Shown here: one piece after another, positions 4,031 through 35,915 of the stretch
How the letters are laid out: each line of letters begins with the position of its first letter
Position numbering within the stretch: position 1 is the stretch's first letter
From: Acidisphaera sp.
GTDB taxonomy: Bacteria > Pseudomonadota > Alphaproteobacteria > Acetobacterales > Acetobacteraceae
DNA: 39,511 bases
NCBI GenBank assembly: GCA_019240395.1
Contig: JAFAYM010000256.1
Span: forward strand, 1 to 39,511
Reading direction: 5' to 3'
Program-made: the position numbers and the translations under genes
The notes under the pieces: generated by a model
The model's input: only the letters and a program-made list of their open reading frames with translations
What the model was told of the DNA's origin: nothing
Databases searched by the model: none

Positions 4031-6666
4031 TAGAGGCCGCCCATGCCGGTATCCAGCGCGTTGGCGGTGCTGGCCGAGGCGGCCGTCGACGGCCCGACGC
4101 CGCTGTCGGGAGTGCCGGCATCGCCCATCGCCGCCACCGTCGAGGCCCCGGGCTCCTGGCCGACCTTGTAGGCATCCAGCGCGCCGTTGCCGGAGGCCAC
4201 CAGCGTGACGCCGGGCGGCGGCGTGAAGGGCAGCACCGGGCGGTTCTTCAGCGCCACCGCCATGAAGTCGTGCCAGATCGGCGCCGCCACGGCGCCGCCG
4301 GTCTCCTTGTCCCCGAGGCTCGCCGGGTTGTCGAAGCCGACCCAGACGGCGGTGACCAGGTCGGGCGTGAAGCCGACGAACCAGGCGTCGTTGAAATCCT
4401 GGCTGGTGCCGGTCTTGCCGGCGATCGGCCGCTTCAGCCCCTGCCCGGCGGGCACGCCGGTGCCACGCTGCACCACGCCCTGCATCATCGTCACCACCTG
4501 AAAGACGCTGTCCGGATCGGCGATGCTCCGGCGCTGGTCGTTCAGCACCGGCGGCTGCGCGACCTGGCCTTCGCAGCTCTCGCAGGTCGTGCCGGCTGGG
4601 CGCCACAGCACGTGCCCGTCACGGTCCTGCACGCTGTCGATCATCGTCGGCACCACCTCGCGGCCGCCCTCATCGAGGGAGGCGTAGGCACCCGCCATGC
4701 GCAGCACGGTGGTGTCCACTGCGCCGAGGGCGGCCGGCAGCACGCGGGGCATGTTGTCGACGACATGGAAGGCGATCGCGTTCTGCGCCACCGCCTCCAT
4801 CCCGACTTTCTGCGCCACCCGCACGGTGACCAGGTTCAGCGATTTCTCCAGCGCGACGCGCAGCGGCACCGGGCCGAGGAACTCCGGCTCGTAGTCGTTC
4901 GGCCGCCACTGGCCGGCGGCACCCATGTCGAGCACGAAGGGCGCGTCGAGGAAGCGCTGGCTCGGCGAGATGCCCTGCTCCATGGCGGTGAGGAAGACGA
5001 TCGGCTTGAAGCTGCTGCCGGGCTGCCGGTTCGCCTGGGTGGCGCGGTCGAACTGGCTCATCTCGTAGCTCCAGCCGCCGGCCAGCGCCAGCACGCGGCC
5101 GGTGCGCGGATCGAGCGACACCAGCGCGCCCTGCACCTGCGGAATCTGGCGCAGCAGCATCTTCTCGGCCGGCAGCGCGGAGGCGCCGCGGGCGCCGGGC
5201 AGCGGCACCGTGGCGGCGCCCGCCGGCTCGGCCATCACCACGTCGCCGACCTGCACGATATCGCTCATGCGGTGCGGCGCCGGTCCCATCCGGCCGTCGC
5301 GGTTGGGGCGCGCCCAGCCGGTGTCGCCAAGCGCCAGGGAGAAGATCCGCGGTACGCCGGCGATGCCGGGCGGCGCGTCGGCCGGCCGATCGAGCCAGCC
5401 CAGCTTCGCGTCCGCCGCGCTCTCGTCCAGCACCACCGCGAGCTTCCAGCCCGGCAGCATGCCGGGCGGCCGGGCGATCTGCGGCAGCAGGGTGGTCCAG
5501 GAGGCGCGCAGGGTGGCCGCATTGGCGTCGAGATGGCCGACCGGCCCGCGCCAGCCGCCGTGCGAGCGGTCGTACGCCAACAGCCCGTCGCGCAGCGCGC
5601 GATCGGCGGCGCCCTGCAGGTCGGTGTCCAGGGTGGTGCGCACCATCAGCCCGCCCTGGGTCGTGGTGTCGGCGCCGAACCGGTCCACCAGCTGGCGGCG
5701 CACGTCCTCGGCGAAGTAGTCGGCACCCTGCACGATCTCCGGCCGGCGGAAGCTGGCCGGCACGATCGGCTCCGTCTTTGCCTGCGCGGCCTGCTCGGGA
5801 GAGATCGCGTGGTCGTCGGCCATCCGGTCGAGCACCCAGTCCCGCCGGCTGCGCGCGGCGTCGGGGAAGCGCGTCGGATTGTAGTTGTTCGGCGCCTTCG
5901 GCAGCGCCGCCAGGAACGCCGCCTCGGCGACGTCGAGCCGGTCGAGCGACTTGTTGAAATAGGCCTGGGCGGCGGCGGCCACGCCATAGGATTGCTGGCC
6001 GAGATAGATCTCGTTCAGGTAGAGCTCGAGGATGCGCTCCTTGCTCAGCGTTTCCTCGATGCGCCAGGCCAGCAGCGCTTCCTTGAACTTGCGGCTGAAC
6101 GACATCTCGTTGCCCAGCACCATGTTCTTGGCGAGCTGCTGGGTGATGGTGGAGGCGCCGATCGGCCGCCTTCCCCGGGCGACCAGGGAGATGTCGGTGA
6201 TGGCGGCGCGCGCGATGGCGACCGGATCGACGCCGCGATGCACCCAGAAATTCTGATCCTCGGCGGAGACGAAGGCGCGCTTCACCAGATCGGGGATCGC
6301 CGTGTACGGGACGAAGATTCGCCGCTCGGTCGCCAACTCGGCCATCAGCGCGCCGTTGCCGGCATAGACCCGGCTCATCACGCGGGGCTGGTAGTGGCGC
6401 AGGCCGTCGACGCCGGGCAGGTCGGAGGCATAGTGGAGATAGCCGGCATAGCCGGCCGCCGCCCCGCCGAGTGCGAGCAGCAGCACCAGCCCCAGCAGCG
6501 CGCCGAAGATCCGCCCGGCCACCCCCCGCCGGCGGACCGGCCCCTTGCCGTTCGGCCCCGCACCATTCGGAACGCGTGCGCGTGCGCCGGTCCGTCCGGA
6601 CACCGCAGGACGCACCAGGCGCTCTCCGGCCGACAGGCTGCTTCTTGTGGGCCGATCCTCGGTCAT
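4027..6666 (-). CDS. mrcA: Penicillin-binding protein 1A (bifunctional glycosyltransferase/transpeptidase)
   Basis: 879 codons. A basic cytoplasmic tail is followed by one membrane segment (about 54-76, FGALLGLVLLLALGGAAAGY). The GT51 glycosyltransferase follows, with catalytic EDQNFWVHRG at 136-145, GASTITQQLAKN and LELYLNEIYLG. The transpeptidase has SSFK (nucleophile S551, K554), SLN at 609-611 and KTGT from 751. The Ser/Ala/Gly-rich C-terminus (TAASASTANALDTGMGG) looks disordered. It polymerises and crosslinks peptidoglycan in the periplasm. The stop codon overlaps the TTG start of prfB; amiC lies 48 bases upstream, so the three genes are probably one transcript. Confidence 0.96.
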
Positions 6667-27509: not shown

Positions 27510-27827
27510 ATGGCGAACAATGGCAGGCCGGAATCGGCGCTCGGCGTTACCACGGACATAACCTCGTTCGGCATCGAGGAGCTCCTCGGGGCGGTCGACC
27601 GGGCAGCGCAATCAGGCAATCAAACCGCCGCGGAATGGATCGTGCAAATGATCTACGACACCCTGGACAGGGCGGTCCCGCAACGAAGTCTCGGCCGGCG
27701 GGGTGCCCGGACGACCTCTGACGGCTTCTCCCGCGCCACCGCGGCGATGGAGCTGAAGGGCGGCCGATCACCGGCGCGGAGGGGATCGGCTCAGTGGATG
27801 CCGGCGAGGCGCAGACCGGTTTCGTAA
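27510..27827 (+). CDS. Hypothetical small protein
   Basis: 105 codons. The central part ITSFGIEELLGAVDRAAQSGNQTAAEWIVQMIYDTLDRA reads like a genuine amphipathic helical protein. The C-terminal 40 residues are Arg-rich and less convincing, and the last 37 bases overlap the end of the opposite-strand regulator gene. ATG at 27510 has GGGG a few bases upstream. No family recognised. It could be a real small regulator or a chance frame; treat as tentative. Confidence 0.35.
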   Translation: MANNGRPESALGVTTDITSFGIEELLGAVDRAAQSGNQTAAEWIVQMIYDTLDRAVPQRSLGRRGARTTSDGFSRATAAMELKGGRSPARRGSAQWMPARRRPVS

Positions 27828-29827
27828 AGGAGGCGATCCTCGGGCCGGACGTGGCGCATTGTGGCCAGCGCTCGCTGGACGCTGAAATCGGGCTCGATCT
27901 GCACCAGCTTGGCGCGAATCTCCTCGATCTCGGCGCGCAGCCCAAGGTGACCGAGGGCGGCAATCTGCGCTTTGAGTGTCGAGGAAAACCACGGATTGAG
28001 CTCGATCGCGCGGTGTCCGATGTTCACCACGGTATCGAAATCCCCCTTCATCAGGTGGGCGATCATCAACGCCATGTCGAAGAAGTAGGAGTGCGGATCG
28101 AGCGGCGACAGCTTGATGGCCTGACGGACCAGCCGCAGCGCTTCGTCGTGTTCGCCGCGGTAGCTCTGGGTCAGCCCGGAGAGCACCCAGGCGAGCGGCA
28201 GATTGGGATTGGCCACAATGGCGCGCGAATGCAGCGCGCGCGCCTCCTCGAGCCGGCCGTAGAGGAAGGCACGCACGTGTCCGGCAATGGTCAGCCCGCG
28301 GGCGTCGGTCGGATCAAGCGCCACGGCACGCTCGGCGGCGGCCCCGGCCCGGCGCATTGCCTCCGTGCTGCTTTCCGCCCAGCCTTGCCCGATCAGGAAG
28401 ATGTTCCAGCAGGCCAGCCAGCCATGGGCGGCCGCATCCTGCGGATCGAGGGCGACGGCCCGGCGCAGCAGGTCACCGGCGCGGTTGAAGGCGTCGCGAT
28501 CCAGCTGGTAAATGCATGGCACCGCTTGCAGCACCAGGTCCTCGGCGGTCAGATCGGCTGACGGTCCGTCCGCTCCGTTTCGGCTGGAGCCGTTTGCCTG
28601 ATAGCCGTTAGGACCCGCCTGCATCAGCAACGCCGTGTCGACCTGGGCGGCGATTTGGCCGGCGATCTGATCCTGCAGTGACAGGAGGTCGTCGGCCTCG
28701 TGGTCGAATCGCTGGACCCAGATCGCCTCTCCGGAGGCCCGCAGATCGAGCAGGCGCATCATCACCCGGACCCGTCCTCGTGATTTCTGGACGGTGCCGT
28801 CAAGGATGAAGCCGAAACCCTGCTGGCGAATATCAAGACCCACGCTCCCGGTTTCGGCTTCCAGGCGGGAAATCGAGAGATCGGACAGGACCGAGATGTG
28901 ACGGAAGCGAGCCAGCGCCGTCGTGATTTCCTCGGCCAAGCCGACCGAGAGGCTTGGATCGGTCTCCTGGCCGATATCGCGAGGCGGCAAGACCGCGACG
29001 CGGATGCCGCGGCCGAGCAGGCGGCCGGGGGTACGAATGTTGGAGTTCGGCCGCAGGATGCCGCCGGATTGCTCTGCCCATCTGATGTCAGCGACGATCG
29101 CCTCGGTTTCCGGGGAGGGCGCGGTTTTCAGCAGGTCGGCAAGCACTTTCTTGCAGCGGGCATACAGTTCGACCACCAGGGCGCGCTCGCCGCGCTCGGC
29201 ATGCGCCCGCATCAAGGCGCGCCAGGCGTCCTCATGTGTCGGGTCGAGCGTCAGCAGCCGGTCAGCCGCCGTGATCACCGCGTCGGGCTCGGTCTGCTGC
29301 AGCAGGGCGGCACGGGCGATCTGCCGGGCCGCATCGCCGAGTCGCCGGCGCTCGATGGCGAGCCATTTGTCAAAAGCAGGATCGAGGCCGGAGAGCTCTT
29401 CAAGAAACTCGCCCTGGATCAGCGCCAGCGGCTCCGGCCGCTCGGCCGTCGCGCGGGCCAGTTCGTGGACGTCGGCCAGTATCCCATCGGCGTTCAGGGC
29501 GACGGCAAAGCGGTCGGCCCGCAGCAGCGACGGCGTGATCGGCGCAAGGCACTCCGCCAGATCATGCAGCGCTTGCCGCAATGAGCCGCGCGCCTGATCG
29601 GCTCCCCGCTGGCTCCAGAGCAGCCGCCACAAGGTCGGACGCAGCACCGAGGCCGGCGCCGACACGGTCAGCACCGCGAGCAACCCCCGAGCCTTGCGCG
29701 ACCGCGGCAGGACCAGCGCCCGGCCGTCGACCCACGCCTCCATCTGGCCGAAGAGCTTCAGGCGGAGCACGGGCGCACTCGGCTCATCCGATGAGGGGGA
29801 GACAGTGGCATTCACCTCCCTGTCCAT
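27791..29827 (-). CDS. BTAD-family transcriptional regulator with TolB-like and TPR domains
   Basis: 678 codons. An N-terminal winged-helix part (about 18-115, LRLKLFGQMEAWVDGRALVL ... SRKARGLLAVL ... ARGSLRQALHDL) is followed by the BTAD helical domain (DKWLAIERRRLGDAARQIARAAL ... HEDAWRALMRAHAERGERALVVELYARCKKVL). Next is a TolB/FlgO-like alpha/beta domain (IRVAVLPPRDIG ... VGLAEEITTALARFRHISVL). The C-terminal half is TPRs (RAVALDPQDAAAHGWLACW; RAVALDPTDARGLTIAGHV; QAIKLSPLDPHSYFFD). This is the SARP-like architecture of one-component activators, here without nucleotide cyclase motifs. It is divergent from the 70-residue repeat-peptide gene and so probably controls that locus. The start Met is chosen by domain extent; the SD is poor. 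Confidence 0.85.
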   Translation of the reverse strand: MDREVNATVSPSSDEPSAPVLRLKLFGQMEAWVDGRALVLPRSRKARGLLAVLTVSAPASVLRPTLWRLLWSQRGADQARGSLRQALHDLAECLAPITPSLLRADRFAVALNADGILADVHELARATAERPEPLALIQGEFLEELSGLDPAFDKWLAIERRRLGDAARQIARAALLQQTEPDAVITAADRLLTLDPTHEDAWRALMRAHAERGERALVVELYARCKKVLADLLKTAPSPETEAIVADIRWAEQSGGILRPNSNIRTPGRLLGRGIRVAVLPPRDIGQETDPSLSVGLAEEITTALARFRHISVLSDLSISRLEAETGSVGLDIRQQGFGFILDGTVQKSRGRVRVMMRLLDLRASGEAIWVQRFDHEADDLLSLQDQIAGQIAAQVDTALLMQAGPNGYQANGSSRNGADGPSADLTAEDLVLQAVPCIYQLDRDAFNRAGDLLRRAVALDPQDAAAHGWLACWNIFLIGQGWAESSTEAMRRAGAAAERAVALDPTDARGLTIAGHVRAFLYGRLEEARALHSRAIVANPNLPLAWVLSGLTQSYRGEHDEALRLVRQAIKLSPLDPHSYFFDMALMIAHLMKGDFDTVVNIGHRAIELNPWFSSTLKAQIAALGHLGLRAEIEEIRAKLVQIEPDFSVQRALATMRHVRPEDRLLYETGLRLAGIH

Positions 29828-30201
29828 GGCTCCGAGTCGCTTCCCGCTCTTGATCCGTCGGGGTTCGTGGCAGCACGAACGGAGTAACCGCTCTAGACGG
29901 CCGCAAAAGCCGGTACAGGTCAAGCCTTCGTGCCCGCCGTGATAGTCTCACACAATCGCGTGAGATACCAGAGGCAGCCGCAAACCGACTTGTCCGGCCC
30001 AAAAAACCTCTGGAAAAGGGTTTATTCCAAGTGTAAGGAAACCAAACCGATTAATAAAGGTTGACGGTCTTGAACTTCCCGGCGAGGTTGAGAGTCGCCG
30101 GAAGCGGCTTACTGAAAGTGACATGGTAGTCATTGGGCCACTACTGTGCCTACTCTCCTGATACGCGGGCTCGAACACGACTATACAAGGTGAGGTTCAA
30201 A
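29828..30201. promoter_or_regulatory. Divergent, AT-rich control region of the repeat-peptide locus
   Basis: 374 bases between two divergent genes, clearly more AT-rich than anything else nearby (for example 29998-30060). Features seen: a perfect 6-bp inverted repeat TCTCAC-N8-GTGAGA at 29946-29965; a stem CCGGCGA-N9-TCGCCGG at 30079-30101; and TTGACG at 30061. No complete sigma70 promoter stands out in either direction. The inverted repeat is a plausible operator for the BTAD regulator; that is inference. Confidence 0.45.
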
Positions 30202-30414
30202 ATGGACACCAAGCAGCTGACTTCTACGCTCGTGGGGACGACGGCATGCCGCTTGGCGCCGGCCAGACCCATGGTCGCCATTGCCGATCCCAACACCGTG
30301 CGCATCGGCGCCGGCCTGAAGGGCCTGCCCGCCGCCAAGCCCGCCGCCGCCATCGCCGACCCCAGCCGCGTCCGCATCGGCGCCGGTCTCAAGGGCCTGC
30401 CCCGGCGCACTTGA
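30202..30414 (+). CDS. Two-repeat small peptide, candidate RiPP precursor
   Basis: 70 codons. ATG at 30202 has AAGGTGAGG just upstream. A polar leader (MDTKQLTSTLVGTTACRLAP, one Cys) is followed by two copies of a segment: AIADPNTVRIGAGLKGLP (26-43) and AIADPSRVRIGAGLKGLP (50-67), with a 24-residue period and tail RRT. Sixteen of 18 residues are identical. At DNA level 8 of 54 bases differ, and 5 of those are silent, so the peptide sequence appears conserved under selection. It is not a signal peptide or a membrane protein. A strong hairpin follows, then a DUF6065-like gene and an exporter. Leader plus repeated core is typical of multicore ribosomal peptide precursors; that role is inference. 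It matches no family I recognise. Confidence 0.7.
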   Translation: MDTKQLTSTLVGTTACRLAPARPMVAIADPNTVRIGAGLKGLPAAKPAAAIADPSRVRIGAGLKGLPRRT

Positions 30415-30438
30415 GCTAGCCGGTCGCTTCGGCAGTCG

Positions 30439-30474
30439 CACCGGAGGCGGAGCCCGGCTGCTCCACCTCCGGTG
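30439..30474 (+). terminator. Strong hairpin after the repeat-peptide gene (attenuator)
   Basis: A 15-bp stem with a single mismatch and a 6-base loop (left arm CACCGGAGGCGGAGC, right arm GCTCCACCTCCGGTG), 24 bases after the stop. No T-run follows, so it is more likely an mRNA stabiliser or partial terminator that makes the peptide transcript more abundant than the downstream genes. Confidence 0.75.
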
Positions 30475-30501
30475 TGGCCGGAGTGGCTCACCGCGGCTGG
30501 C

Positions 30502-30543
30502 ATCGTCACCCGGCTATCGTCACCCGGCTATCGTCACCCGGCT
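30502..30543 (+). repeat. 14-bp x 3 tandem repeat upstream of the DUF6065-like gene
   Basis: Three perfect copies of ATCGTCACCCGGCT (30502, 30516, 30530) and a broken fourth (ATCTTCAC). It ends 24 bases before the start codon at 30568. Fourteen is not a multiple of three, so gain or loss of a unit would alter the spacing of the untranslated leader. Confidence 0.92.
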
Positions 30544-30567
30544 ATCTTCACGAGGTACGGTGCAGCG

Positions 30568-31329
30568 ATGGATCAGCCGGCGGATGCCGAACAGACCGTG
30601 CGTTTCTTCCAGTTGGTGGCACCGGCGCGCGCGCCGCAGCGCGCAGACCGTTCTGCTGCCGGCACGATACCGCATCGTGCCGCGCAATACTGCGACGCCA
30701 TCACGGTGGCAGCCGCGTTCGGCTGGTACGTGTTTCCGCCGATGGATTTTCGCGTGTTGTGGGACGGCCGCGATCTCTTCTGGACCTATCACGGGGTCGA
30801 CGACTGGCTGGCGCTTGGGGCAGCGCAGTTCCCGGATTTCGCCGCGAGCTTTGATGCGCATGCTCCCGACGAGCTCAAGGGCTACGCCCCGCCGTTCCTG
30901 ACGGCGCTGCCCGAGCCCGGATTGCTGCAGATCTGGAGCGGCGTGATGGCGCGCACCCGCCCCGGCTGGAGCCTGCTCGTGCGCCCGCCGGCCAACCTGC
31001 CCCGCAGCGGCGGCTTCGACATGTACGAGGGCATCATCGAAAGCGACCGCTGGTTCGGTCCGTTGTTCATCAATTTGCGGCTGACCCGCACCCACGTGCC
31101 GGTGGACATCAATGGCGAATGGCCGCTGTTCCAGGTGCAGCCGATCCCGCAGCACGCGTATGCTGAAGCAACCCTGGGCGCTTCCGCCATAGTCAGCGGG
31201 CTGGAGAGCTTCAGCCCGCGGGATTGGCAGGATTACGATCGGACGGTGGTCCGCCCCGAGGGCAAGTCGGCGCATCAGATTGGCCACTATGCCGCCGCCA
31301 CGCGACGACGGCGCAAGCAGGCGAGTTAG
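30568..31329 (+). CDS. DUF6065-like protein
   Basis: 253 codons. The conserved pattern is AFGWYVFPPMDFRVLWDGRD, then TRPGWSLLVRPPANLPRSGGFDMYEGIIESDRWFGPLFINLRLTR and VPVDINGEWPLFQVQPIPQ. I match it to DUF6065, proteins of unknown biochemical function; the fit is by remembered pattern only. The C-terminus is basic (RRRRKQ). No signal peptide or membrane segment, so it is cytosolic. ATG at 30568 is preferred, since a GTG at 30472 would put the start inside the hairpin and force the 14-bp repeats into coding. GAGG lies about 12 bases upstream. Sitting between a repeat peptide and an exporter, it is a candidate peptide-modifying or peptide-binding protein. Confidence 0.75.
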   Translation: MDQPADAEQTVRFFQLVAPARAPQRADRSAAGTIPHRAAQYCDAITVAAAFGWYVFPPMDFRVLWDGRDLFWTYHGVDDWLALGAAQFPDFAASFDAHAPDELKGYAPPFLTALPEPGLLQIWSGVMARTRPGWSLLVRPPANLPRSGGFDMYEGIIESDRWFGPLFINLRLTRTHVPVDINGEWPLFQVQPIPQHAYAEATLGASAIVSGLESFSPRDWQDYDRTVVRPEGKSAHQIGHYAAATRRRRKQAS

Positions 31330-31379
31330 CACCTGCCGGCTGACGGGTCCTGCCGGACGCGATTTCCAAGGAGAGATGC

Positions 31380-32603
31380 GTGAGATCCGCCGGCCCGATC
31401 CGCTTCGCCGAGTTCGTGCTGATCGTCGCCACGCTCAGCGGTTTGACCGCGTTTTCCGTCGACAATGTCCTCCCGGCATTTCCGGCAATCGCGGGCCAGT
31501 TCCATCTGGCCGGTCAGAATGATGTGCAGTACCTCGTCTACACCTACGGCATCAGCTACGCGATCATGCAGCTCGTTTACGGCACGGTCTCCGACAGCGC
31601 GGGGCGCCGCCCGGTGGTCCTGTTCGGCTTGGCGGTGTATGCGGTTGCCAGCCTTCTCGGAACCTTCGCGGACAGCTTCCCGCAACTCCTGACGGCGCGC
31701 GTGTTGCAGGGCATCGGCGCCGCCTCTGCGCGGGTTCTCTCGATGGCGATCATCCGCGACCGCTATCACGGCAGCGACATGGCGCGGGTGCTGTCGCTGA
31801 CCTTGATGATGACCATCCTGCTGCCGGTTGTCGCGCCGTCAGCCGGGAGCCTGCTGCTGCTGGTCGGCAGCTGGCGGACCATCTTCGCCAGCATGGCCGT
31901 CATCCCCGTGCTCCTGTCGGTCTGGTTCGGCCTGCGCATGCCCGAGACGTTGCCGCCCGGACGCCGATCGCGCTTTTCCGCGCAGCGCATCCTGGCCGAT
32001 GCCGGGATCGTCGCGGCGACCCGCCGATCGGTCGCATATGCGACGGCGACCGGGCTGGTGATGGCCTGTCTCTACGCCTATGTCGGCTCGGCGCAGCAGA
32101 TCCTCGGCGGCACCTACCGGCTCGGCGGCCTGTTTCCGCTGTTGGTCGGCATGCTGGCCGCGGTGCTGAGCGTTGCTGCCTTCACCAATGCACGCCTGGT
32201 CAAGTCCATCGGCCTCTCGCGGCTGGCCCACGCCGCGCTCTGCGGCAATGCCGCCGTGGCTGTGATCCAGCTGTCCGTCGCCTACCTGTTCGGTGGCCAC
32301 CCTCCGCTGGCCTTGTTCTGCGTCATGATCGGCGGCAGCCTGTTCCTGTTCGGACTGATCATCCCGAATTTCAGCTCCCTTGCCCTCGAGCCGCTCGGCA
32401 GCGTCGCGGGCACCGCCGCCTCGATGCTCGGCGCCTACACCACCTTGATGGGTGCGGTGCTGGGACTGTTCGTCGGCCGGGCCTTCGACGGCACGATCCT
32501 GCCGCTGAGTATCGGTTTCGTCGTCTTCGGCCTGACAAGCCTGGCGACTGTCGCCTGGAGCGAGCGCGGCAGGCTGTTTCATGCCAGCCAGCAGGTCGCC
32601 TGA
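31380..32603 (+). CDS. MFS exporter, Bcr/CflA type
   Basis: 407 codons from GTG with AAGGAG 7 bases upstream. Twelve hydrophobic segments. The family markers are FSVDNVLPAFPAIAGQF in the first segment, the motif-A-like YGTVSDSAGRRPVVLFG loop, and LTARVLQGIGAASARVLSMAIIRD. These proteins export drugs, amino acids or peptides using the proton gradient. It starts 50 bases after the DUF6065-like stop, so it is probably the last gene of that operon and may export the peptide product or an unrelated compound. Two inverted repeats follow. Confidence 0.92.
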   Translation: MRSAGPIRFAEFVLIVATLSGLTAFSVDNVLPAFPAIAGQFHLAGQNDVQYLVYTYGISYAIMQLVYGTVSDSAGRRPVVLFGLAVYAVASLLGTFADSFPQLLTARVLQGIGAASARVLSMAIIRDRYHGSDMARVLSLTLMMTILLPVVAPSAGSLLLLVGSWRTIFASMAVIPVLLSVWFGLRMPETLPPGRRSRFSAQRILADAGIVAATRRSVAYATATGLVMACLYAYVGSAQQILGGTYRLGGLFPLLVGMLAAVLSVAAFTNARLVKSIGLSRLAHAALCGNAAVAVIQLSVAYLFGGHPPLALFCVMIGGSLFLFGLIIPNFSSLALEPLGSVAGTAASMLGAYTTLMGAVLGLFVGRAFDGTILPLSIGFVVFGLTSLATVAWSERGRLFHASQQVA

Positions 32604-32652
32604 TACCAGCCGGCGAAAGCGTTGACTCTTCCAACGCTCCCGCTGGCTGGTA
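32604..32652 (+). terminator. Long imperfect hairpin after the MFS gene
   Basis: TACCAGCCGGCGAAAGCGTTG and its near-complement (18 of 21 bases) separated by ACTCTTC. It begins at the base after the stop codon. Likely a terminator or repeat-derived 3' structure. Confidence 0.6.
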
Positions 32653-32692
32653 CCGCGCGCCGGGTTGGCGGGCGGCGGCGCGCCAGATAAAG

Positions 32693-32735
32693 GCGTCATA
32701 CCAACGGTCATTCTTTATGACCGTTGGTATGACGC
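32693..32735. repeat. Perfect 19-bp inverted repeat between convergent genes
   Basis: GCGTCATACCAACGGTCAT (32693-32711), loop TCTTT, then its exact reverse complement (32717-32735). It sits between the MFS gene and the convergent XRE gene, where it could end transcription from both sides. The sequence also looks like a dispersed intergenic palindrome. Confidence 0.9.
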
Positions 32736-32754
32736 GCACCGACGCGGTTTCGGC

Positions 32755-33051
32755 TCAGTTCCTCTCGACGGACTGGAAGAAATAGCTGATCCGCACGCCG
32801 AGCAACGTCGCGAATTTGCATAGATGCGCCGGCGAGACCCGGTCGGCACCCCGCTCATACATCTGCAACTGCTGCAGCAGCAGGGCAGCCTCCCCGGCGA
32901 GCTCCGCCTGCGAGAGGCCGAGCGCCAGCCGGCGCTTGCGGAGCCGGTTGCCTACGTTGACATCAACCTCGGAAACCGGAACGCGCCGGTCACTATTCTG
33001 CCACGCTGGCGCACCGATGCCCTCGCGGCCCGCCTCGTCGGTCTCTTCCAT
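32755..33051 (-). CDS. XRE-family (helix-turn-helix) transcriptional regulator
   Basis: 98 codons. The HTH_3 domain is at about 33-95: VGNRLRKRRLALGLSQAELAGEAALLLQQLQMYERGADRVSPAHLCKFATLLGVRISYFF. This is the common alphaproteobacterial form with YERGADRVS in the recognition segment; the AALLLQQL stretch replaces the more usual ALGVSFQQV. There is no ligand domain. The ATG at 33049-33051 is preferred over longer frames, which run into repeat-derived sequence. Upstream lies a degenerate copy of the 2415 repeat. Its targets are unknown; the adjacent exporter gene and the flanking c-di-GMP gene are candidates. Confidence 0.88.
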   Translation of the reverse strand: MEETDEAGREGIGAPAWQNSDRRVPVSEVDVNVGNRLRKRRLALGLSQAELAGEAALLLQQLQMYERGADRVSPAHLCKFATLLGVRISYFFQSVERN

Positions 33052-33119
33052 GCGGGCGATCCCGGTCAACTTCAGGGAGGATAGGCGCTCGCCTTGGCAG
33101 CAAGCAAGGCGGACGAACG

Positions 33120-33147
33120 CGGCTTTATTCCCACCGATCGGATGTTG
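33120..33147. repeat. Degenerate partial copy of the 2415-2520 repeat
   Basis: On the minus strand TAGAGCAACATCCGATCGGT... matches the end of the element at 2520 (TAGAGCAAGATCCAATCGGG...) in about 21 of 26 positions, with the rest missing. It lies between the XRE gene and the start of the next gene's 3' end. Confidence 0.45.
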
Positions 33148-33149
33148 CT

Positions 33150-35915
33150 CTAAGCCGTGGAGGGGATCGGCGGGACCAGGCAGGCGCGCACCATCTCGGC
33201 CGGCATCGGGCGGCCGAGCAGGTAGCCCTGCACCTGGCTGCACCGCAGGCGGCGCAGCACCTGCAGTTGCAGCTCGGTCTCCACACCCTCGGCGACGACG
33301 CCCAGCCGCAAGGTGCTGCTCAAGGTCAGGATCGCCTGCGCGATGGCCAGCGCCTCGTCGTCGTCACCCAGGCTCTGGACGAACGATTTGTCGATCTTGA
33401 TCTTGTCGAATGCAAAACGACGGAGGTAGCTCAGGCTGGCATGGCCGGTGCCGAAATCGTCGAGCGAAATGCGGATGCCCTGCGACTTCAGCGCGGTGAG
33501 CGTGACGGCGACACGCTCGGTATCGTCGATCAGCAGGCCTTCGGTGATTTCGAGGTGCAGCCGGTGGCCACACATGCCGGTCGACGCCAAAATTCCGGCA
33601 ACCAGTCCGGGCAGATCCGGCTGGCGGAACTGGGCCGGCGAGAGATTGACGGCGAGGTGCACATCGCCCGGCCAGGTCGCCGCCTCGGCACAGGCGGTCT
33701 CAAGCACCCAGCGGCCGAGCGGCACGATCAGGCCGGTCTCCTCCGCCATCGGTATGAACTCCATCGGCGGGATGGCGCCTCGGACGGGATGGGTCCAGCG
33801 CAGCAGCGCCTCAAAACCGGAGATCTGCCGGCTGTCGGTGTCACAGATCGGCTGATAGTGCAGCGTCAGGCGGTTTTCCGCGATCGCCTCGCGCAGATCC
33901 TGCTCCAGAAGCTGACGCTCGTAGAGCCGGATGTTCATCGAGGGATGGAAGAAGCGGAATGTGGTGCCCCCCTCCTCTTTCGCGCGGTAAAGCGCGGTGT
34001 CGCCGTTCTTGAGCAGTTCCTCGGCGGCGACACCGTTTTGCGGATGCAGTGCAATGCCGACACTGACGCCGATCATCGAGAGCTGGCCGTTGATGTCATA
34101 CGGCCGCGACAGCGAGTCGACCAGCCGCCGGGCCAGCGCGGCGGCGTCCGCCGGGTCGGCGATCGACTGCACGATGACGAACTCGTCGCCGCCGATCCGG
34201 GCGATCGTGTCGCACTCGCGCACATCCTGGCGGATCCGATTGGCCACCTGGATCAGCAGCTGATCGCCGACGTGATGGCCGCGGACGTCGTTGACCAGCT
34301 TGAACCGGTCCAGATCAAGGCACAGCACTGCGACGCTCCGGCCGTTGCCGGAGATCGATCGAATGGCACTCTCCAGATGATCGTCGAGCGCGATCCGGTT
34401 GGCCAGCCCGGTCAGCGCATCGTGGTGGGCGAGGAAGCGGATCTTGTCCTCGGCCCGCTTGCGCTCGGTGATGTCGGTGAAGGTGCGAACCGCGCCGCCC
34501 GCCGGCAACGCCTGGGTGCGGATCTCGAGCACCATGCCGTTCGGCCGCACCCGTTCGTAGACGGAGAATCTCTCATGGATGCCGCCGGCTTCGACGAACC
34601 GTCGAAGGTCGTTCTTTCCCGCCCCGTCCGGCCCGAACTCCCCCGATTGCAGCTGCCATTTGAGGATCTCGTCGAAGCTGGGAACCCGGGCAATGAGTTC
34701 GGGAGGCAAGCCGAGCAGCTCGGCGGCACGCCGGTTGATGACCGGCGCCCGTCGATGCTTGTCCACCATCAGGATGCCCTGGCTGATGTTCTCCAGCGTG
34801 TCCTTGAGCGCCTGCTGGGAATACGCCAGACGCCGCTTGTGGCGGACCATCAGGCCGCCGACGATGAGCACGAGGAAGGTAAGGCAGGTGCCGACGCCGA
34901 CGTATTGCCGCTTGTCGCGCCGATAGGTTGCGAGAACGTCCGCCAGATCGAGGCCGACGCTGACGATCAGCGGATAGCGGGTCAACTTGCGGAAGCTGCT
35001 GATCCGGCTTACGCCGTCGAGCTGGCTGCGGCCGATGAAGCTGCCATGCCGGGCGGTCGATCGCAGAATCGGCGAGTTCGCGATCACGCGGCCGATCATG
35101 TGCTCGCTGACCGGCGCCCGCGCCCGTACCACGCCGTCAACGCCCACCAGCAGCAGGATGCCGCGGCCGAGATCCAGCGACTGGTAGAAGCTGGACAGCA
35201 TGTAGGGATCGAGCGAGACCACGACGACACCGTCGAATGATCCGTCCGGCGCCACGATCTTGCGGGTGAACTGCAACGACCACTTGCCGGAGTCGCGCCC
35301 GACAACCGGCGTGCTGATGTAGAGCGTGTCCTGGCTCGTACCGAGATGGACACGAAAGTGCTCGCGATCCGAGAGGTCCATCGGCTTGACCACCGGGCCG
35401 AGCGAGCTCGCCCGCAGCATGCCGTCCTTGTCGATGATGGCGATCTGGAAGGTCAGGTCGTTGGAGATCGCATTGTCGCGAGTCCAGCGGGCCAGGTCGA
35501 AATTCGGGTTGTCGAGATAGGAGCCGCGGACGAAGCGCAAGGTCTGATCGATCGACGCGACGGTGCGGTTGATGTTCTCCTCGAACGCCAGGGCCAGATT
35601 ACTGCTGTTCAGCTCCGCCTGGCTTTCAGCCAGAGAACGCTCCTGCAGCAGATGCAGGGCGATCGCGGCCCAGAGCAAGCCGACGATGACGCAGATCAGG
35701 CTGACATCGATGACGAAGCCGCGACGCCGGCGCTCCGGCACCCCGGGCCAAGTCAGACGGTCCAGAACGCCGATCACCCCTCGGCGACGGCGGCCGCGCT
35801 CGGCTCCGCGCTGCTCCAGGCCAGGCTTGGACTCCAGCTCCACAGTCCGGCAACTCCCGTGACGCCGGTCCGGACAGCGGCAACCCCCGCACGATCCGCC
35901 AGCGACGTCGAACAT
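33150..35915 (-). CDS. Periplasmic sensor-PAS-GGDEF-EAL c-di-GMP protein
   Basis: 921 codons. A membrane segment at about 68-90 (FVIDVSLICVIVGLLWAAIAL), a periplasmic PAS/Cache-like sensor (about 95-335, NINRTVASIDQTLRFVRG ... DREHFRVHLGTSQDTLYISTPVVGRDSGKWSLQFTRKI) and a second membrane segment (YVGVGTCLTFLVLIVGGLMV) are followed by PAS (about 370-490). GGDEF is intact at 575-579 with I-site RECD five residues before; EAL is intact (EALLRW at 702, LEITEGL, LDDFGTGHASLSYL, KIDKSF, AEGVET). Both enzymatic sites look functional. The first 60 residues are basic and unconserved, so the true start may be further in. It is separated from the ABC gene by 89 bases. Confidence 0.94.
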   Translation of the reverse strand: MFDVAGGSCGGCRCPDRRHGSCRTVELESKPGLEQRGAERGRRRRGVIGVLDRLTWPGVPERRRRGFVIDVSLICVIVGLLWAAIALHLLQERSLAESQAELNSSNLALAFEENINRTVASIDQTLRFVRGSYLDNPNFDLARWTRDNAISNDLTFQIAIIDKDGMLRASSLGPVVKPMDLSDREHFRVHLGTSQDTLYISTPVVGRDSGKWSLQFTRKIVAPDGSFDGVVVVSLDPYMLSSFYQSLDLGRGILLLVGVDGVVRARAPVSEHMIGRVIANSPILRSTARHGSFIGRSQLDGVSRISSFRKLTRYPLIVSVGLDLADVLATYRRDKRQYVGVGTCLTFLVLIVGGLMVRHKRRLAYSQQALKDTLENISQGILMVDKHRRAPVINRRAAELLGLPPELIARVPSFDEILKWQLQSGEFGPDGAGKNDLRRFVEAGGIHERFSVYERVRPNGMVLEIRTQALPAGGAVRTFTDITERKRAEDKIRFLAHHDALTGLANRIALDDHLESAIRSISGNGRSVAVLCLDLDRFKLVNDVRGHHVGDQLLIQVANRIRQDVRECDTIARIGGDEFVIVQSIADPADAAALARRLVDSLSRPYDINGQLSMIGVSVGIALHPQNGVAAEELLKNGDTALYRAKEEGGTTFRFFHPSMNIRLYERQLLEQDLREAIAENRLTLHYQPICDTDSRQISGFEALLRWTHPVRGAIPPMEFIPMAEETGLIVPLGRWVLETACAEAATWPGDVHLAVNLSPAQFRQPDLPGLVAGILASTGMCGHRLHLEITEGLLIDDTERVAVTLTALKSQGIRISLDDFGTGHASLSYLRRFAFDKIKIDKSFVQSLGDDDEALAIAQAILTLSSTLRLGVVAEGVETELQLQVLRRLRCSQVQGYLLGRPMPAEMVRACLVPPIPSTA

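Follow-up and report, generated by a model that had tools for sequence, protein, structure and literature searches.

A repeat peptide encoded beside a DUF6065 protein of predicted dUTPase fold: a candidate ribosomal-peptide pathway in Alphaproteobacteria

Among ribosomally synthesized and post-translationally modified peptides (RiPPs), the multi-copy-precursor families, such as the cyanobactins and graspetides, are encoded by a short gene with tandem cores of variable copy number, accompanied by a dedicated partner and sometimes by an exporter. Fungal repeat peptides processed by Kex2 belong to the same comparison (PMC7329392). Here we describe a locus of this general layout on a 39,511-nucleotide stretch of DNA from Acidisphaera sp. 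(contig JAFAYM010000256.1; the whole stretch is called the window below), in which a short gene with tandem repeats precedes, on the same strand, a gene for a protein of the DUF6065 family (PF19541). It differs from the systems above in that no known RiPP enzyme, clear leader, or protease was seen at the locus, and modification of the peptide is putative. By predicted fold, the DUF6065 protein has its closest described counterpart in the trimeric dUTPases (PF00692), in which the motifs PRSG, GTIDADYRG, and a C-terminal RGxGGFGSTG are catalytic, the catalytic aspartate lying in the GTIDAD region. The Stl repressor binds dUTPases. The elements that carry the argument are these:

30202 to 30414, forward strand: repeat peptide open reading frame (ORF), 70 residues, beginning MDTKQ and ending RRT; a related motif lies upstream of other window-type DUF6065 genes
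30277 to 30330, forward strand: repeat 1, AIADPNTVRIGAGLKGLP, an 18-residue segment of the 70-residue peptide
30349 to 30402, forward strand: repeat 2, AIADPSRVRIGAGLKGLP, an 18-residue segment of the same peptide
30568 to 31329, forward strand: window-type DUF6065 protein (from PF19541), 253 residues, predicted dUTPase fold (from a structure model)

An earlier note made from the DNA alone gave correct coordinates for the locus and described the two segments as near-identical; they share 16 of 18 residues. Their 18 codon pairs differ by five synonymous and two non-synonymous changes, an excess of synonymous differences that is expected if the repeat is maintained at the protein level. Neither this peptide nor any of four others tested has a Pfam or NCBIfam match above cut-off; weak matches to VMAP-M7, DUF4113, and a carbon storage regulator were regarded as chance. 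The protein that the note had called DUF6065-like is a member of PF19541 (55 bits; curated cut-off 26.6). Matches to PF19541 are present in 108 of 299 genomes of the window's family, and the proteins fall into two groups, scoring 238–485 bits and below 43 bits with a hidden Markov model built from five window-type proteins. Classic members, found in bacteria and on viral contigs, belong to the same Pfam family (profile–profile probability 98.7) and share with the window type C42, G52, and N143 (at least 90% across both kinds) and, for the most part, the G-I-V-E-T-D stretch. The window type nevertheless forms a separate subfamily, and the classic loci lack the peptide.

Linkage of the two genes was seen from both directions. 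When named genomes were scanned with only the DUF6065 protein as query, three loci were returned, from two Rhodospirillales metagenome-assembled genomes and Nereida. In all three a short repeat peptide immediately precedes the DUF6065 gene, with two copies in both of the former (in L009 the peptide frame stays open up to the next gene) and five of the DAGRVHIANKSPAF type in Nereida. A Rhizobium plasmid carries, in order, an 83-residue "hypothetical protein" with three units, the DUF6065 gene, and an MFS gene in two pieces. In a class-wide search of 385 genomes, four besides the window's (G464, G560, G482, and G099) had window-type genes (at least 372 bits; remaining matches at most 54 bits), and the peptide lay upstream in all four.

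A pattern derived from the discovery peptides, D.[GSAK].[VIL].[LIVMF][GA], matched upstream of 37 of 46 discovery loci and was afterwards tested on 40 freshly fetched loci. Among the 38 held-out window-type loci with at least 300 nucleotides upstream, the motif occurred within 1 kb upstream on the same strand in 33, versus 3/38 on the opposite strand, 1/36 downstream, and 3/24 upstream of classic DUF6065 genes, so that the classic loci stand at control level. A looser second pattern gave 34/38 upstream versus 8/38, 7/36, and 6/24 for the same controls. By eye, 35 of the 38 carry a peptide: the first-pattern match at L233 is not one, and the peptides of L216, L220, and L224 were caught by the second pattern only. 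At L204 the upstream sequence was too short to count, and the motif is visible at the contig end. The held-out loci are not phylogenetically independent of the discovery loci, most of which were obtained by the same search of the family.

In the reverse direction, a peptide query matched 48 of 200 family genomes, from which 30 loci were fetched. Ten of these end at a contig edge past the array, nine within fewer than 14 nucleotides, whereas in L269 the copies continue to base 84 of the contig. Of the 20 with downstream sequence, 18 have a DUF6065 gene just downstream on the same strand; the other two (G058 and G173, both of genus g58) have other sequence downstream of the array. The peptide gene is thus mostly accompanied by the DUF6065-like gene, the segments are conserved in relatives, and the lists of downstream ORFs show no single pathway to which the DUF6065-like gene would always be tied. 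We regard a partnership between the peptide and the DUF6065 protein as highly probable. Contigs often stop within or right after the peptide gene (for example L049, L204, L269, L270, L284–L286, and L290); the arrays seem to break assemblies, and since they often lie at contig ends such genes are readily missed and may be hidden from annotation.

The anatomy of the peptide was read from 88 of the 106 loci with a DUF6065 protein, those for which a peptide had been chosen automatically. Its core is D (0.91)-[AST]-G (0.77)-[KR] (0.80)-[VI]-R (0.88)-[LIFMV]-G (0.96)-[AG]. The picking pattern accounts in part for the D, VI, R, L, G, and AG positions; the third-position G, the fourth-position KR, and the tail are free. 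A variable tail follows, AGLKGLP in the window and GFAPTL, AMSPAL, NKSPAF, AGMRRG, or AGWRLP elsewhere. Units are most commonly spaced by 17 residues and mostly by 14–27. The number of copies ranges from one (33 of 88 loci) to 18 or more in L049, whose contig begins inside the array. Divergent members differ even in the core (GKSKVKLGMMAPAF; FGDGGCIYR). Multi-copy peptides have a short N-terminal part, and single-copy peptides almost none.

Peptide tail and DUF6065 protein have diversified together. Tail class, defined as proline at the fourth tail position (32 rows) or not (53 rows), was placed on the 85 labeled rows of a quick tree of 97 DUF6065 proteins (with support from the Shimodaira–Hasegawa-like approximate likelihood ratio test), on which the branch of the window protein is long. 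The label requires five changes, compared with a mean of 25.9 for shuffled labels, and all 500 shuffles required more. The pattern is consistent with recognition of the peptide by the protein.

The predicted structure of the DUF6065 protein has the fold of a dUTPase. An AlphaFold2 model made from 57 sequences (22 window-type and 35 classic from viral contigs) has a predicted local distance difference test score (pLDDT) of 90.8 and a predicted template modeling score of 0.84; an earlier model built from four sequences (pLDDT 41) was of no use. In a Foldseek comparison of the model with the PDB, the 50 matches listed are dUTPases or dUTPase complexes (best E 7e-6; template modeling score 0.75 by target), and alignment to 3ecy_A with VIA-align gave a Z of 11.4 and a root-mean-square deviation of 3.0 over 119 residues. 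In a library of viral structures, the matches include unnamed phage proteins and dUTP diphosphatases. At the level of sequence, a Pfam scan of the window protein at E ≤ 1 returns DUF6065 alone and not PF00692, a PDB search by the DUF6065 sequence profile gave nothing significant, and profile–profile comparison with dUTPases is not significant, so that the support for a link to dUTPases is the predicted beta-clip fold. A search of the four locus proteins against PADLOC gave no match to known anti-phage defense at E ≤ 0.01, and the window protein matches one unnamed family in PHROGs (E 0.0076).

The alignments comprised 46 of 47 window-type proteins (A1; L060 left out), 9 of 25 classic loci (A3), 22 window-type with 35 of 67 viral-contig classic proteins (A4), and dUTPases (A5); motifs were compared with the consensus of 16 dUTPases. 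In the window-type consensus, PRSG is replaced by PPAN and GTIDADYRG by GIVETDRWFG, in a register taken from the non-significant profile alignment and by eye; a glycine-rich C-terminal motif like RGxGGFGSTG is absent. The A1/A5 alignment, itself not significant, pairs PPANL-type with PRSGL-type sequence and sets EGIVETD near GTIDAD, in agreement with the register read by eye. In this register E158 would occupy the place of the catalytic aspartate, and the serine of PRSG would be lost. Across the window type C42, N143, and E158 are invariant and D160 is nearly so. Judged by motif, then, the window-type protein is not a dUTPase, and it may be a repurposed relative of one. The idea that the peptide imitates the glycine-rich C-terminal arm of dUTPases, considered by eye only, was dropped because the pattern is missing from several core types.

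The remaining features of the locus are as follows:

27791 to 29827, reverse strand: BTAD/TPR transcriptional regulator, transcribed away from the peptide gene; ATG at 29827, frame open to a TTG at 29923
29828 to 30201, no strand: divergent control region, A+T-rich relative to the window; Shine–Dalgarno-like AAGGTGAGG right before the peptide ATG
30415 to 30500, forward strand: strong RNA hairpin between the peptide and DUF6065 genes
30502 to 30551, forward strand: three 14-nucleotide tandem copies, ATCGTCACCCGGCT, head to tail, the last imperfect in its continuation, directly 5' of the DUF6065 start
31380 to 32603, forward strand: MFS exporter, Bcr/CflA-like (MFS_1, 107.8 bits)

The divergent regulator described in the earlier note is present (Pfam BTAD, 45.2 bits, plus TPR), its gene sitting just outside the range 29828–32603 that the note had covered, and it recurs. 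In tblastn searches 34 of the 47 window-type loci flanked by 2.5 kb on each side had a homologue, and 36 of 48 linked cases lie upstream on the opposite strand; there was none in 45 control loci (25 classic DUF6065 and 20 dut), each only about 3.7 kb long. The intervening region is AT-rich, as claimed (51.8% G+C for 29924–30201 against 69.6% for the whole window). No sigma-70-type site was found within 29700–32800, and an Rfam search of 29700–33200 gave no match at E ≤ 0.1.

The hairpin after the peptide gene also stood up to analysis, with a folding energy of −60.8 kcal/mol against −41.1 for shuffled sequences (z −5.7). It recurs in relatives: in the 50 of 88 loci that could be surveyed (gap of 90–320 nucleotides without N; window included), 30 have a z of −2 or lower after the peptide, compared with 4 of 88 control stretches of coding sequence within the DUF6065 gene. 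It has no T run and is absent from the terminator-like sites called for the region, so attenuation is a plausible, putative role for it.

The exporter is a less regular companion. Its MFS family is confirmed, and the best NCBIfam model, efflux_Bcr_CflA (TIGR00710), scores 190.7 bits, just below the cut-off of 200.9. An MFS gene lies beside the DUF6065 gene in the window, Nereida, and Rhizobium, an EamA gene in L037, L057, L058, and L075, and a sugar-porter type MFS gene 75 nucleotides downstream in L054. The window MFS protein itself matches 1 of 87 other loci (L239, 30% identity), and downstream genes elsewhere vary (for example GDSL lipase-like in L049 and CoA-transferase in L078). The note's natural-product peptide locus is therefore retained for linkage, segment conservation, regulator, and hairpin, but not for an exporter as a general part, exporters having been identified directly adjacent in some lineages only, from two unrelated families. 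The occurrence of MFS and EamA genes immediately beside the DUF6065 gene in separate lineages suggests that the product is small and exported.

We propose that the two genes encode a dedicated, co-diversifying pair in which the DUF6065 protein probably acts on the repeats as a maturation enzyme, in the manner of a RiPP pathway, with peptide made in excess, a BTAD/TPR switch, and export; we give this proposal an even chance of being correct. The peptide would present one to many copies of D-x-G-[KR]-[VI]-R-[LI]-G-[AG], each with a variable tail. The DUF6065 protein, working as a trimer as its predicted fold would imply, would bind the copies singly and modify each one bound; on whether such maturation is covalent our judgment is equally divided. 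The hairpin would permit an excess of peptide over protein, the BTAD/TPR protein would turn the unit on, and a small product would leave through an exporter where there is one, the MFS protein in the window. Like a RiPP locus, this one has a gene-encoded precursor beside a partner gene. Of known modifying-enzyme families none was found among the 21 window ORFs scanned with Pfam, which are part of the window's ORFs and include some probably non-coding frames; the radical SAM, LanC-type, and YcaO enzymes, whose absence the earlier note had pointed out, are missing from this set. To our knowledge the dUTPase fold is not that of any known RiPP enzyme. A broader reading, which we hold tentatively, is that of a new class of ribosomal-peptide pathway whose sole conserved maturase is a repurposed dUTPase-fold protein acting on tandem units to give a small exported product, a pathway that would be common in one Rhodospirillales family and present in Rhodobacterales and Hyphomicrobiales.

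No literature naming DUF6065, PF19541, IPR045709 (which we take to be the DUF6065 accession), or six peptide strings was found in sources whose coverage lies outside bioRxiv preprints and most subscription journals, and broader searches gave nothing on the peptide–DUF6065 pair in titles or the openings of abstracts. With no describing paper and no Pfam or NCBIfam model for the peptide above cut-off, we rate the pair, as far as searched, as a kind without prior description, its chemistry putative, in agreement with the earlier note, which knew of no such class. Were the DUF6065 protein to act on the peptide, peptide maturation would gain a new enzyme fold, and the class could be mined from genomes, with ready libraries of natural core variants. 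DUF6065 gains its first testable function.

Several observations weigh against this proposal. The dUTPase motifs are not retained and the fold is known from nucleotide enzymes, which leaves enzyme activity uncertain. Single-copy peptides of about 30–40 residues leave scant room for a leader, and conservation is highest in the repeated element, which sets it apart from many RiPP cores. The tree fits recognition and does not prove it: a linked pair inherited together would show the same clustering of tail labels, and the test cannot tell common descent of such a pair from co-adaptation. No protease was seen among the neighbors scanned, which are not a full survey, and the downstream ORF lists, with families assigned in some loci only, show no obvious exporter in most loci. 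The peptide is missing by eye from three held-out loci (L206, L233, and L241) and was not found near the DUF6065 gene in L039, L069, L073, and L082. Finally, a second peptide in the window's own genome, at a site whose genes look tatC/serS-like by eye, has no DUF6065 gene adjoining.

Two of these cases can be followed further. In genus g58 some DUF6065 genes are accompanied by a peptide of their own (L048, L218), and a second set has none (L069, L073, L206, L241); this second set forms one clade, sister to genes with GFAPTL-type peptide tails. The unlinked arrays of the genus (G058, G173) carry GAFAPTL tails, matching the type of that sister group, so the pair seems to be kept but unlinked. 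The second peptide of the window's genome (G000:C2, locus L105, 7801–8064, reverse strand) has 63 residues with one clear and one degenerate unit. Roughly 1 kb away is another copy of the regulator, of which this genome has three close copies and one weak match. In the same-genus genome G001 the site is syntenic, with 84% DNA identity across 2,078 aligned columns and a gene that looks serS-like by eye; a response regulator, a DUF6065 gene, and the peptide motif follow one another there. The window's genome has no DUF6065 gene at this site, while the peptide, a response regulator homologue, and the BTAD regulator are present; either the window's DUF6065 protein serves both peptides or the locus is decaying.

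The main rival to a maturation enzyme, in our view unlikely, casts the peptide not as a substrate of the DUF6065 trimer but as a multivalent ligand or inhibitor, its copies docking at the dUTPase-like site to control or gather the protein. A short linear element of variable copy number that has co-diversified with the protein would suit such a role, as would the loss of the catalytic motifs, and the titles of Stl complexes in the PDB record dUTPase-fold proteins bound by a protein inhibitor. The parallel with Stl lies in a protein partner that binds a dUTPase-fold trimer (here a predicted fold and a presumed binding), whereas the partner here would be a repeat peptide encoded next door and not a repressor. 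The joining of exporters to the unit in several lineages argues against a ligand, and the hairpin after the peptide gene, though compatible with one, would be left unexplained.

We consider it improbable that the peptide is an unmodified, exported, bacteriocin-like product with the DUF6065 protein as its immunity protein or chaperone. The peptide is short and an MFS gene is near it in the window, Nereida, and Rhizobium, but no signal or double-glycine leader is apparent by eye, most loci lack an obvious exporter beside the gene, and the MFS and EamA families typically transport small molecules. A similarly low probability attaches to the peptide as a ligand of the divergent BTAD/TPR regulator, either cytoplasmic or as an exported signal, with the DUF6065 protein tuning it: the regulator's mostly upstream, opposite-strand recurrence and its persistence near the second peptide where DUF6065 is absent speak for this, whereas Nereida (L010) and Rhizobium (L103) have the pair without a detectable regulator homologue within about 6 kb on either side. 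A chance small ORF with a local duplication, for which high-G+C DNA abundant in open frames might allow, has a negligible probability and is already refuted by the conservation of the peptide, namely the held-out and reverse tests, the synonymous excess between repeats, and related peptides in three orders.

Some DUF6065 genes have phage-like surroundings. Terminase- and portal-like genes lie downstream of DUF6065 in 16 of 18 IMG/VR loci (L085–L101), a collection of viral contigs that selects for phage genes, and in 2 of 87 genome loci (L222, L223); a single-domain response regulator often stands between. The neighbor in these loci is possibly a gene-transfer-agent-like or prophage element. 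On a phage-like contig, L102 has at 4995–5699 a DUF6065-like gene whose tblastn identity to the window protein is 36%; no peptide was seen upstream by pattern, and endolysin-like and integrase-like ORFs are nearby by eye. A viral-contig collection contains 67 classic DUF6065 loci (L136–L202), many on long contigs; among the 13 read, some adjoin ORFs that by eye resemble 2-oxoglutarate oxygenases (L167, L201) or paralogues (L188, L198). In the window itself, a 19-bp inverted repeat with a 5-nucleotide loop (GCGTCATACCAACGGTCAT / ATGACCGTTGGTATGACGC) lies at 32693–32735 between the convergent MFS and helix-turn-helix genes and is terminator-like on the minus strand.

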